NCBI RefSeq assembly: GCF_005601135.1
Contig: NZ_CP039381.1
Location: 1,051,941-1,115,940, forward strand
DNA length: 64,000 nt
From: Ruminococcus bovis
GTDB lineage: Bacteria; Bacillota; Clostridia; Oscillospirales; Acutalibacteraceae
Direction: 5' to 3'
Position numbers and translations under genes: made by a program. Shown piece by piece: positions 26,205 through 32,073 of this stretch. A model generated the notes under the pieces. That model worked only from the letters and a program-made list of their open reading frames with translations. It was not told where the DNA came from and ran no database searches. Position 1 is the first letter of the stretch; each line of letters starts with the position of its first letter.

Positions 26205-26795
26205 TTATTCGTAATTTCTAACTAAGCTGATAACTGTACCAAGCAGTACAACTTCATCAACAATAATTGGTTCAAATAGTTCATTTTCCGGTTGAAGTCT
26301 GTAGTGACCGTTTTCCTTATAAAATCTTTTGCAAGTTGCCTCATCTTCAATAAGTGCAATTACAATGTCACCATTATTTGCTACAGGTGTTCTATGTACA
26401 ATAACAATATCACCGTCTAGAATACCGGCATTAATCATAGATTCACCGTCAATTCTTAGGGCAAAAAGCTCTCTGCCTCTTTTTAGGTTCTCTGTTACAG
26501 GTACATATCCCTCAATATCTTCAACTGCTAAGACCGGTAAACCGGCAGTAACTCTACCCATAATAGGAATTTGATTTACCTTTTCTTCACCGGCAATTCT
26601 AATACTACGGTTAAGACCCTTATCTCTTTCGATTAAACCCTTTTCCTCAAGGGATTTTAGGTGAAGATGAACTGTTGAAGTAGATTTTAGTCCTGTATGT
26701 TCACAAATCTCTCTAACAGATGGCACTCTGCCTTCTTCACTACATTCTTTTATATAGTCAAAAACTTTTTGCTGACTTTTTGTTAGTGGTTTCAT
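26205..26795 (-). CDS. lexA: LexA SOS repressor
   Basis: A 196-residue LexA. The N-terminal winged helix (MKPLTKSQQKVFDYIKECSE ... SVREICEHTGLKSTSTVHLHLKSLEEKG) recognises SOS boxes. The self-cleavage site is A84-G85 (VTAGLP), and the Ser-Lys dyad is S119 (DGESM) and K156 (EATCKRF). The ATG at 26795 follows GAGGTGATT; an in-frame GTG nine bases upstream lies inside that ribosome site. The promoter carries a matching LexA box, so the gene is autoregulated. The downstream PNPOx-like gene is in the same unit. Confidence 0.97.
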   Translation of the reverse strand: MKPLTKSQQKVFDYIKECSEEGRVPSVREICEHTGLKSTSTVHLHLKSLEEKGLIERDKGLNRSIRIAGEEKVNQIPIMGRVTAGLPVLAVEDIEGYVPVTENLKRGRELFALRIDGESMINAGILDGDIVIVHRTPVANNGDIVIALIEDEATCKRFYKENGHYRLQPENELFEPIIVDEVVLLGTVISLVRNYE

Positions 26796-26822
26796 AGTAA
26801 TCACCTCACAACTGTTTTACAT

Positions 26823-28827: not shown

Positions 28828-28894
28828 TTTTCACACAACCAACAAAAACCTTTCAGTTTTCTATAACAACAAAACTGATTTTTGGGTATATAAT
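28828..28894 (+). promoter_or_regulatory. Two-box promoter A
   Basis: TTTTCACA at 28828, CTTTCAG at 28850 and the -10 TATAAT at 28889. The box starts lie 61 and 39 bp before the -10, exactly as in promoters B, C and D. There is no recognisable -35, suggesting activator dependence. An inverted GTGAAAA (28811-28817) faces the first box. Confidence 0.8.
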
Positions 28895-28900
28895 ATAGGC

Positions 28901-29042
28901 GTACTAAAGAAATGGAGCCGCAACCATTTCAGTACATTGTTCTACCCTCCTCAATGTTAATCCACAAAAAGATTTACATTGTACCCCTCATTTTAATGAA
29001 AACAAAGCACCGAGCTATCCACAAGGCTCGGTGCTTTGCTGT
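28901..29042 (+). ncRNA. Candidate small RNA A (CU-rich, mgtE upstream)
   Basis: The predicted transcript starts GTACTAAAG. Hairpin I: GTACT and GAAATGG pair with CCATTTC and AGTAC (28901-28935). Hairpin II: ACATTG/CAATGT exposing loop TTCTACCCTCCT. A second CU-rich stretch TACCCCTCATTTT follows near 28982. It ends in a perfect 13-bp stem (29003-29015 with 29026-29038). No ORF is present. Loop CCCTCCTC is complementary to Shine-Dalgarno sequences. Copies B and C keep the plan. I do not recognise a named Rfam family. Confidence 0.7.
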
Positions 29043-29104
29043 GTAAGGAGGTTATTTGGTAGGATAAATTTAGGTAAAAATTAAGTTAAAAGTATTGTGA
29101 CTTC

Positions 29105-29133
29105 TTGACTTTATGCACTTTTGGTGCTAAATT
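29105..29133 (+). promoter_or_regulatory. Promoter of the mgtE leader
   Basis: TTGACT (29105-29110), 17 bp, TAAATT (29128-29133). Start near 29140, 23 nt before the leader ORF. Confidence 0.6.
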
Positions 29134-29162
29134 GATATAAGAAAATATTGGAGGTGAAGTTA

Positions 29163-29258
29163 ATGGACAGTTGTGATAGTTTTGGTGGGTGTATTGTTTA
29201 TGGTGATATGGAAGTTAAAGTTGTAGCACTGTCTGTTGATTTCGATAGTTTACTTTAA
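29163..29258 (+). CDS. Possible 31-aa leader peptide upstream of mgtE
   Basis: An ATG with a very strong TTGGAGGTGAAG ribosome site opens 31 codons, MDSCDSFGGCIVYGDMEVKV and eleven more residues. The peptide is acidic (six Asp/Glu) with no basic residue except one Lys, and has no signal peptide. It ends 15 bp before the first arm of an attenuator-like hairpin. A regulatory leader ORF for mgtE, where translation changes folding of the hairpin, is plausible. Acidic leader peptides are used in Mg2+ sensing by enterobacterial mgtA, but no sequence relation is claimed. Confidence 0.5.
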   Translation: MDSCDSFGGCIVYGDMEVKVVALSVDFDSLL

Positions 29259-29273
29259 TTTAATATTATTCTG

Positions 29274-29344
29274 TACCACCGTATTTATCCTAATACTACG
29301 CAACGATAATTTGTGAAACTGCTATGGATAGTGGTGGTATTTTT
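29274..29344 (+). promoter_or_regulatory. Attenuator-like hairpin in the mgtE leader
   Basis: TACCACC (29274-29280) pairs with GGTGGTA (29333-29339), with an inner ATCC/GGAT pairing (29287-29290, 29326-29329), directly followed by T5. It sits between the leader ORF and mgtE. I do not find the conserved segments of the M-box (ykoK) riboswitch. Confidence 0.55.
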
Positions 29345-29377
29345 ATGCCTATTTTTAGGTAGTAGGAGGTAATAATA

Positions 29378-30766
29378 ATGAATAAAGTAACTAAGCCAAT
29401 GTATTCTGATGAAGTACTAAAGATTTTTAGAAGTAATCTTCCTAAGGAAGAACTAATAGAAAAAATTTCCGATTACCATATGGGTGATATTGCCGATGCA
29501 TTTGAGAAAATGACATCGGAAGAAAGAAAGTCACTATACCCTGTGTTGGGTGTTGAAATGGTGGCTGAGATATTCTCTTATATTGAGGACTCAGAAGAAT
29601 ATATCAAGGAAATTAATTCCGATAAAGTAGCTAACTTGATTTCAGAAATGGACTCAGATGATGCTGTTGATATTCTGGAGAAGTTAAGTGATACTGACAG
29701 AAAGAGAATTGTTGCTTTACTTGACAATGATGCAAAACAAGATGTTAGTATGATTTTGTCATATGAAGATGATGAAATCGGTAGTGAGATGACAACTAAC
29801 TATATTGTTGTAAACAAAAATCTTACTATTAAAGAGGCTACCCATCAGCTAATTACTCAAGCAGGAGAAAATGACAACATTAATACTATTTATGTTGTTG
29901 ATGATAATGACAGTTTCTACGGTGCTATCGACTTAAAGGACTTGATTGTTGCAAGGGAATATCAGTCCCTTGATGAACTGATTATAAAGTCCTACCCATA
30001 TGTAAAGGCCAATGAAAAAATAGTTGATTGTATTGAACAACTAAAGGACTATGCAGAAGACTCAATCCCTGTACTTGATGACAACAAACATATCTTAGGT
30101 GTAATTACTGCCCATGATATTGTTGAAGTTGTTGATGAAGAACTTGGTGAAGATTATGCAAAGCTAGGTGGTTTGACTGCTGAAGAAGATTTAAACGAAA
30201 CAACTTTGCAAAGTACAAAGAAAAGATTGCCTTGGTTAATAATCTTGTTATTCTTAGGAATGGGTGTTTCTTCAGTTGTAGGTATGTTTGAAACAGTTGT
30301 TGCAGTTATTCCTATTGTAATATGTTTTCAGTCACTAATCCTTGATATGGCAGGTAATGTAGGTACACAGTCACTGGCTGTTACAATTCGTGTACTTATG
30401 GATGAAAACTTAAAAGCATCTGACAAAGTTAAGCTGATGTTTAAGGAAGTAAGAGTAGGTTTTTCTAATGGTCTTTTACTTGGAACTATGTCATTTATTT
30501 TTGTAGGATTGTATATTTTCTTGTTTAAAGGTAATACATTTGGATATTCTTTCTTAGTATCCGGTTGTGTTGGATTTTCACTTTTAGCCTCAATGGTTAT
30601 TTCAAGTTTGGTAGGTACATTAGTTCCTATGTTCTTTAGCAAGATTAAGGTTGACCCTGCAGTAGCCTCAGGTCCACTGATTACAACAATAAATGACCTT
30701 GTTGCAGTAGTAACTTACTATGGTATGGTGTGGATATTCTTAATTGATATTTTTAAGTTAGCATAG
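29378..30766 (+). CDS. mgtE: Magnesium transporter MgtE
   Basis: A 462-residue MgtE-family Mg2+ channel/transporter. In order: an N-terminal helical superhelix of acidic MgtE_N repeats (about 1-125), a CBS pair (about 130-255; SEMTTNYIVVNKNLTIKEA, YPYVKANEKIVDCIEQLKDY) that senses cytoplasmic Mg2+, a plug helix, then five transmembrane helices (about 280-460). The pore and ion-site motifs LDMAGNVGTQSLAV and DPAVASGPLITTINDL are intact. TAGGAGG precedes the ATG. It follows a leader with a small ORF and an attenuator-like hairpin, and it lies between candidate small RNAs A and B. The CCTCC loops of those RNAs could pair with its ribosome site. Confidence 0.95.
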   Translation: MNKVTKPMYSDEVLKIFRSNLPKEELIEKISDYHMGDIADAFEKMTSEERKSLYPVLGVEMVAEIFSYIEDSEEYIKEINSDKVANLISEMDSDDAVDILEKLSDTDRKRIVALLDNDAKQDVSMILSYEDDEIGSEMTTNYIVVNKNLTIKEATHQLITQAGENDNINTIYVVDDNDSFYGAIDLKDLIVAREYQSLDELIIKSYPYVKANEKIVDCIEQLKDYAEDSIPVLDDNKHILGVITAHDIVEVVDEELGEDYAKLGGLTAEEDLNETTLQSTKKRLPWLIILLFLGMGVSSVVGMFETVVAVIPIVICFQSLILDMAGNVGTQSLAVTIRVLMDENLKASDKVKLMFKEVRVGFSNGLLLGTMSFIFVGLYIFLFKGNTFGYSFLVSGCVGFSLLASMVISSLVGTLVPMFFSKIKVDPAVASGPLITTINDLVAVVTYYGMVWIFLIDIFKLA

Positions 30767-30790
30767 ATGAATAATGAAATTTTCTCATAG

Positions 30791-30857
30791 TTTTCACATA
30801 ACTGACAGATATATTTCAAATTATTATAACAGTAAAAACAAATTGTAGGGTTATACT
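30791..30857 (+). promoter_or_regulatory. Two-box promoter B
   Basis: TTTTCACA at 30791, ATTTCAA at 30813, -10 TATACT at 30852. The 61- and 39-bp spacings equal those of A, C and D. Confidence 0.8.
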
Positions 30858-30863
30858 ATAACC

Positions 30864-31008
30864 GTACTAAAGAAATGGAGCCGCAACCATTTCAGTATAT
30901 TGTTCTACCCTCCTCAATGTAATCAATAAGATTTACATTGTACCCCTCATTTTTAATGAAAGACACAAAGCACTGAGTTATCCACAAGCTCAGTGCTTTG
31001 TTATTTTT
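30864..31008 (+). ncRNA. Candidate small RNA B (CU-rich, mgtE downstream)
   Basis: Closely related to A: the first 40 nt are nearly identical (GTACTAAAGAAATGGAGCC...), with the same hairpin I, the TTCTACCCTCCTC loop and TACCCCTCATTTT. The terminal stem (30966-30977 with 30989-31000) is followed by TTATTTTTA, a good intrinsic terminator. Differences in stems are mostly pairing-compatible. The terminator loop contains TTATCCACA, an exact DnaA-box consensus. No ORF. Confidence 0.7.
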
Positions 31009-31028
31009 ACAGATAGTTTTTCTAATAC

Positions 31029-31095
31029 TTTTCACATAAATTACAAGTATATTTCAATTATTTGTAAAATGAAAAACATATTGACTTTATATACT
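31029..31095 (+). promoter_or_regulatory. Two-box promoter C
   Basis: TTTTCACA at 31029, ATTTCAA at 31051, -10 TATACT at 31090; the same 61/39-bp geometry. Confidence 0.8.
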
Positions 31096-31101
31096 ATAAG
31101 C

Positions 31102-31224
31102 GTACTAAAGAGATACAGAGCTTTAGATACATTGTTTTATCTCCTCAAATAAAACATTGAAAAACCCCTCATTTTTTTCATTAAGTCAAAAACACCGAAC
31201 ATTAGGTTCGGTGTTTTGCCTTTT
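31102..31224 (+). ncRNA. Candidate small RNA C (divergent copy)
   Basis: It starts GTACTAAAG like A and B, but the 5' hairpin is rebuilt: GTACTAAAG pairs with CTTTAG and TAC (31102-31130). Hairpin II is TGTTTTAT/ATAAAACA around loop CTCCTCAA, and ACCCCTCATTTTT follows. It ends in AAAACACCGAAC/GTTCGGTGTTTT (31189-31217). Different sequence with the same architecture is evidence for selection on RNA structure and on the CTCC loops. Confidence 0.65.
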
Positions 31225-31239
31225 GTAATGTGTTTTTTC

Positions 31240-31306
31240 TTTTCACACAAAACACATTTATAATTCAACTGTTACTAACAGTAATAACAAAGTGGTGAAC
31301 TATACT
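31240..31306 (+). promoter_or_regulatory. Two-box promoter D, upstream of a protein gene
   Basis: TTTTCACA at 31240, AATTCAA at 31262, -10 TATACT at 31301; again 61 and 39 bp. This copy drives the ImmA/IrrE-like gene at 31375 and not a small RNA. Confidence 0.75.
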
Positions 31307-31374
31307 ATAACCAAGCTAGAAAAATATAGAAATTAATTAACTTATTATATAGTAAAATTGTAAAGGAGATTATT

Positions 31375-32073
31375 ATGGCTTATTTAACAGAGAAGAATAT
31401 AGAAACAATTGCATATAGTATTGTACAGCAGTATATGAATGTTTATAACATTAGCAGTAATGAAGTCTTTAAGGTTAGTCCTGAGAATGTAGCAAATATG
31501 TTGGGTATTAAGATTCAGTATGTTGACTTTAACGATAAAGAAGTTCTGGGCAAAGTTGCTTTGTGTAATGTGAAAGACGAAATAGGTGAAAGGGAAGTAA
31601 CCCTTAACAACAAGACTGTTTATATGAATAAACAGTTGCTAAAGGGCAGTAGTGGTCACAGAAACTTTGTAACAATGTGTGGAATTTCTTTCTTAATTCT
31701 TAACCGTATTAATAGTGACTTGTATGGTGAAAAGTACCGTAAAAAGTCTATCACTTTGAGAGATGCACCAAGTGATGATATTGTTGAAGGTATCACTTCT
31801 ACTTTAGCATTAGAAATATTGATGCCAAAGGAAACTATCAACTTAGTTTTTAACAAGGTTTATGGTGTTGATAAGTTGAATGTTATCAATCCTGTTGTGG
31901 ATAAAGGAAACTTTATAAAGTTTAACGCAATGGCTGATATGTTTGGTGTAACTAAGGAGATTTTGGCTATAAGATTACAGAAGATGGGTAAGCTGACTGA
32001 ATATCAGTTCTGTGGTTATGAAAACTTGTTGCAACTGCTTATGGCATTGAAGAACTACCATTGCAAGGCTTAG
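31375..32073 (+). CDS. Degenerate ImmA/IrrE-like protein (zinc motif lost)
   Basis: 232 residues with an AAAGGAG ribosome site. The layout recalls ImmA/IrrE (DUF955) metallopeptidases. An N-terminal helical part has SPENVANMLGIKIQYVDF, then strands. A helix HRNFVTMCGISFLILNRI stands where HEXXH (typically AHELGHFLLH) is expected. VEGITSTLALEILMPKE corresponds to the ANxFAAELLMP helix. A C-terminal FGVTKEILAIRLQKMGKL matches the VS..AI..RL..LG motif. The catalytic His/Glu are absent, so a protease role is unlikely; a ligand- or repressor-binding role is inferred. It is controlled by promoter D, shared with the candidate small RNAs. The family assignment rests on pattern only. Confidence 0.55.
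   Translation: MAYLTEKNIETIAYSIVQQYMNVYNISSNEVFKVSPENVANMLGIKIQYVDFNDKEVLGKVALCNVKDEIGEREVTLNNKTVYMNKQLLKGSSGHRNFVTMCGISFLILNRINSDLYGEKYRKKSITLRDAPSDDIVEGITSTLALEILMPKETINLVFNKVYGVDKLNVINPVVDKGNFIKFNAMADMFGVTKEILAIRLQKMGKLTEYQFCGYENLLQLLMALKNYHCKA

Follow-up and report, generated by a model that had tools for sequence, protein, structure and literature searches.

Within the window (the whole stretch of 64,000 nucleotides from Ruminococcus bovis that was analysed), positions 28828-31224 hold three small RNA genes, A, B and C, whose transcripts were predicted from the positions of their promoters and terminators. The sequence-only reading had described three RNAs here, each with a hairpin at the 5' end, exposed C-rich strands and a terminator, and all three were found as described. 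The features of the locus are:

26205-26804, minus strand: lexA, which in relatives is conserved next to the small RNA in divergent orientation
28828-28897, plus strand: promoter of small RNA A (70 bp; genome pattern search and promoter alignment)
28901-29040, plus strand: small RNA A, predicted transcript (covariance model E = 2.3e-28; folding)
29378-30766, plus strand: mgtE, Mg2+ transporter (PF01769, PF03448, CBS)
30791-30860, plus strand: promoter of small RNA B (genome pattern search)
30864-31003, plus strand: small RNA B, predicted transcript (covariance model E = 6.8e-26; folding)
31029-31098, plus strand: promoter of small RNA C (genome pattern search)
31102-31221, plus strand: small RNA C, a diverged copy with re-formed stems (covariance model E = 1.2e-11; folding)
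31240-31309, plus strand: promoter D, of the same design, with no small RNA behind it (pattern search and alignment)
31375-32073, plus strand: open reading frame of 232 amino acids behind promoter D, with a very weak IrrE/M78-like match

All three RNAs share one layout: the start GTACTAAAG is followed by the 5' hairpin (P1), a first C-rich strand UUCUACCCUCCUC (UUAUCUCCUC in C), the middle hairpin (P2), ACCCCUCAUUUU and the terminator. In A, the two C-rich strands lie at 28942-28952 and 28981-28991, either side of P2, and the two motifs have unpaired probabilities of 0.89 and 0.67, whilst the strands of C read TTATCTCCTC and AACCCCTCATTTT. A and B share 83% identity over 216 bp, C being diverged; compared with dinucleotide shuffles, the folds reach z-scores of -7.5 (A), -6.3 (B) and -4.5 (C), with none of 200 shuffles as good in each case. 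The structure was analysed on a sequence-only alignment of 24 homologues, using shuffles and slid pairing partners as controls: double-sided change was present in 23 of 29 pairs (16.3 in shuffles), the number of cells changed on both sides was 143 (43.7 in shuffles), and 96% of the paired cells could pair, compared to 33-45% when the partner was slid. Covariation was seen in P1, P2 and the terminator alike. As the earlier reading held, the 5' stem of C is re-formed with other bases. The C-rich motifs UUCUACCCUCCUC and ACCCCUCA are almost invariant while the stems vary, and this combination of constant single strands with changing stems indicates that function resides in the single strands. A further conserved part is the P1 loop, which contains CCGCA in 103 of 110 RNAs and occurs as GGAGCCGCACC or GGAACCGCAACC, conserved jointly with both C-rich strands; across genera (L226-L250) the form GGAGCCGCACC was seen to be near-invariant.

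We next consider how far the RNA extends among relatives. A DNA search recovered it in 22 of 59 relatives, every one within the genus, and a pattern scan of named genomes matched 100 stretches that, where a taxon was given, came mostly from Ruminococcus, R. bromii and uncultured Clostridia/Clostridiales; the named carriers are R. bromii YE282, R. bromii 5AMG and Ruminococcus sp. FMBCY1, together with one Lachnoclostridium sp. MSJ-17. When 120 genomes of the genus were searched with the covariance model made from 24 sequences, 109 contained the RNA (57 of the 63 good ones), usually as one copy per genome as opposed to the three present here. Across the order the model was positive in 29 of 394 genomes, including 20 of the 39 genomes sampled outside the genus but within the same family; two further families contributed a few. 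The covariance search thus bore out the expectation that the stems are kept in relatives, with the RNA occurring across the genus and in part of the family. Outside the genus the RNA is mostly shorter and P2 is missing: the spacer between the C-rich motifs is 21-44 nt with P2 (genus) and 5-9 nt without it (wider family), and both motifs persist. The match in genome G446 (L232) agrees with the others in RNA, in promoter and in having lexA next to it, and is therefore a real homologue. Three matches from other families (L239, L248 and L249) are not members, as they contain a different C-rich element, and one more (L247) is probably a chance match and was not counted. The element in L239, L248 and L249 (~1501-1634, family f19) consists of AATCCCCCTCCTATTTTTAATGC and a terminator near tadA-like genes, and is perhaps a second, unrelated anti-Shine-Dalgarno small RNA. 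No phage-borne copies were found in viral contigs.

The gene neighbourhood bears on whether the RNA stands alone. lexA, the gene of a DNA-repair regulator, lies divergently upstream of the small RNA in 84 of 121 loci, at ~200 bp in most relatives and ~2 kb here, and also occupies the upstream position in 15 loci of the wider family, one of them from another family. The gene downstream differs from locus to locus, and in 68 of 106 cases it is encoded on the opposite strand; the small RNA is hence a gene in its own right, not a leader. The gene that follows in several wider-family loci (L233-L246) is one that we take, from reading its sequence, to resemble spoIIQ, giving the order lexA, small RNA, spoIIQ-like gene. 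As for the initial description of the three RNAs as lying "around mgtE", mgtE does lie between copies A and B, but this is the case in this genome only; it is lexA and not mgtE that is the conserved neighbour. Upstream of mgtE, 29164-29352 contains a possible 31-codon leader reading frame with a strong Shine-Dalgarno sequence, after which a terminator-like hairpin (-19.1 kcal/mol) and TTTTTA precede mgtE; judged from these sequence features, the region is possibly an attenuation leader. That A itself might act in cis as an attenuator leader, for mgtE or for other genes downstream, could be supposed from its position upstream of mgtE on the same strand in the window. Given that the downstream gene varies and is so often on the opposite strand, that the element closes with its own terminator and that mgtE possesses its own promoter-like sequence and leader, we regard this as very improbable. 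Even less credit can be given to A as a gene for a small protein: a 44-codon reading frame that starts from an ATG at the 5' hairpin is visible in A, but in B it ends after 15 codons, among 110 homologues it reaches at least 30 codons in 11 and stays below 15 in 76, and the covariation of the stems is accompanied by changes in length. Since the frame is short or broken in most homologues, this reading was rejected. The claim that these are small RNA genes is secure, and A, B and C are best explained as paralogues descended from a single ancestral small RNA, trans-acting and ~95-140 nt long, that belongs to the R. bromii-like clade and to the family around it.

The promoters are as distinctive as the RNAs. 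The pattern TTTTCACAYAA-N40-60-TATAMTATA has four matches in the 2.44 Mb genome, all at this locus, while its backwards control has none in the complete genome. Counted from TTTTCACAYAA to the -10 element, every copy is exactly 70 bp long, so that the shared, precisely spaced promoter recognised at the outset holds, with a fourth copy (D) that had gone unnoticed; the four are similar across their full length upon alignment. Promoter A runs from TTTTCACACAA to TATAATATA with phased TTCA/AACA repeats and no clear -35 element. The presence of promoter D suggests that the gene behind it shares the regulon of the small RNAs; the 232-residue protein matches PF06114 at E 0.016, short of the cut-off. 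Across the genus the promoters read TTTCA-N6-TTTCA-N6-TTTCACACAGTTTTCA followed by TTTAATA (the box can also be written TTCA-N7-TTCA-N7-TTCACA, with three TTCA at 11-bp spacing), and those of the family read TTTAAAG-N4-TTCATAGC-N4-TTAACAAC followed by TATAAT. A genus-wide search with the triple repeat matched almost only the small RNA, with one clear exception (L168) and no control matches. Genus and family promoters are both 11-bp direct repeats lacking a -35 element, an arrangement used by OmpR/PhoB-family regulators, and it is likely that a response regulator drives them.

Six clear OmpR-type regulators are encoded in the genome, and among candidates for the regulator of the small RNA we place P0001 first, an identification that we hold at slightly less than an even chance. 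P0001 (G000:C1:799818-800489) is a response regulator of OmpR type encoded with its kinase and adjoining fumarate hydratase, and reaches none of the NCBIfam equivalog cut-offs among the matches listed. In the family, 20 genomes have both P0001 and the small RNA, 4 the small RNA only, 1 the regulator only and 18 neither, corresponding to Fisher p = 2e-7 by genome and 0.02 by genus, with shared ancestry inflating the co-occurrence. The P0001 operon adjoins the small RNA in one sublineage, and a box resembling those of the small RNA, TTTCACGCAGTTTTCA, precedes one P0001 orthologue (0 of 300 shuffles); this box is missing before several other orthologues, and scores nearly as high were in some cases reached by control regulators, two in number. 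Two genomes (G390 and G397) contain the small RNA and a similar promoter without a P0001 orthologue at the cut-off. The main competitor is PhoB, in which case the small RNA would be a member of the Pho regulon, with PhoB/PhoP acting on the 11-bp repeats and induction in phosphate starvation. The pstS promoters of these genomes do contain TTTACA/TTAACA repeats in similar phase, and TTAACA occurs among the family-level boxes of the small RNA; yet the boxes of the small RNA have TTCA where those of pstS have TTTACA, and pstS was found in just 16 of 40 genomes of the genus. PhoB is also not present wherever the promoter is, as two genomes rated 100% complete (G033 and G062) carry the small RNA and no PhoB-like regulator at E 1e-50, and its co-occurrence with the small RNA (20/4/10/9) gives p = 0.05 by genome and 1.0 by genus. 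Membership of the Pho regulon therefore appears rather improbable, and P0001 fits better owing to its co-occurrence in the family, the adjacent operon in one sublineage and the TTTCACGCAGTTTTCA box.

Taken together, we favour an account in which A, B and C are trans-acting anti-Shine-Dalgarno small RNAs activated by a response regulator, and consider this proposal as a whole to be somewhat better than evenly supported. An OmpR/PhoB-family response regulator, which we infer may be P0001, would bind the 11-bp-phased TTCA/TTAACA direct repeats and switch on transcription from a -10 element without a -35 element; the RNA would terminate at its own terminator, keeping the invariant strands UUCUACCCUCCUC and UACCCCUCA open between hairpins, and these C-rich strands (CCCUCCUC / CCCCUC) would pair with the Shine-Dalgarno regions of several mRNAs and so lower their translation, whilst having three copies may increase the amount of RNA or allow the targets to be shared out among them. 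Translational repression by such pairing is probable by analogy: anti-Shine-Dalgarno action is the best reading of the accessible, invariant CCUCC and CCCCUC strands, seen alongside the csRNAs and RoxS. Of the anti-Shine-Dalgarno mimicry proposed initially, the exposed and conserved C-rich strands were confirmed, but neither target test gave an excess of pairing over controls: near-complete complements of loop 1 were no more frequent than in the backwards control in six genomes, and loop 1 against the start regions of the 46 window genes had a median of -9.2 kcal/mol, compared to -9.4 kcal/mol for its own reverse. Recurring matches to TTGACGAGGGTA were discarded as targets, being located in or beside unrelated genes. 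A special link to mgtE, whose ribosome site was the example put forward originally, was not supported: when the 46 window genes are ordered by the energy of their duplexes with A, mgtE comes only fifth for loop 1 (16th for loop 2), A has its own terminator and the copies flank mgtE only here. Pairing with Shine-Dalgarno sequences also does not account for the conserved CCGCA of the P1 loop. This loop is conserved together with both C-rich strands and the target tests gave no clear mRNA, both of which would suit an RNA that serves as a protein sponge through these parts and does not pair with mRNA; set against this, there is no known protein partner and C-rich strands of small RNAs in this phylum usually pair with mRNA (PMC3091779, PMC4409812), making a sponge unlikely, if less so than Pho control. 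Anti-Shine-Dalgarno pairing remains our preferred reading.

Comparison with known small RNAs shows an apparently undescribed but widespread family of a known kind. Rfam 15 gave no match to A, B or C at gathering scores and no credible match at E up to 10, and a literature search turned up no account of an RNA of this type from R. bromii or from other members of its family, in agreement with the sequence-only reading, which saw an undescribed candidate without homology to the RsaE/RoxS type. The closest parallel lies in the csRNAs of the CiaRH regulon of Streptococcus, which exist in several similar copies under an OmpR-type regulator, with the CiaR box TTTAAG-N5-TTTAAG as 11-bp direct repeat before the -10 element (NTTAAG-N5-TTTAAG, 10 bp ahead), and which display an anti-Shine-Dalgarno strand between hairpins and a terminator, most also having an anti-start CAU (PMC3091779); they control the translation of their targets at the start region. 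Our RNAs likewise occur in several similar copies with an 11-bp direct repeat before the -10 element, and have two stem-loops with an unpaired anti-Shine-Dalgarno-like strand between them and then a terminator. They differ in sequence and in branch of the phylum, CAU is placed differently, no homology was found and, instead of the CiaR box, TTCA-N7-TTCA-N7-TTCACA (genus) or TTTAAAG/TTCATAGC/TTAACAAC (family) is present. RoxS/RsaE is a C-rich small RNA activated by the OmpR-type response regulators ResD/SrrA (PMC4409812). C-rich regions and a conserved promoter are common to both, and OmpR-type activation, published for RoxS/RsaE, is presumed here; structure and gene context differ, and no credible Rfam match to that family appeared even at E up to 10. 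The LhrC-type small RNAs of Listeria are also multicopy, CU-rich and linked to a two-component regulator, as is presumably the case here, and no sequence match to them appeared in the Rfam search.

Bacteria of the R. bromii type play a keystone role in breaking down resistant starch, both in the gut and in the rumen, and no regulatory small RNA of theirs was found in Rfam or in the literature search. We tentatively suggest that the R. bromii clade, together with much of its family, may possess in this RNA a core global riboregulator, single-copy and controlled by one two-component system, whose invariant anti-Shine-Dalgarno strands and second conserved loop (CCGCA) would set the translation of many mRNAs simultaneously, and which would have expanded to three divergent copies in this lineage. 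Some nine in ten genomes of the genus contain the small RNA, its covariance model is ready for use, and both its promoter box and a candidate regulator have been specified, so that the family can be tested directly in cultured carriers.
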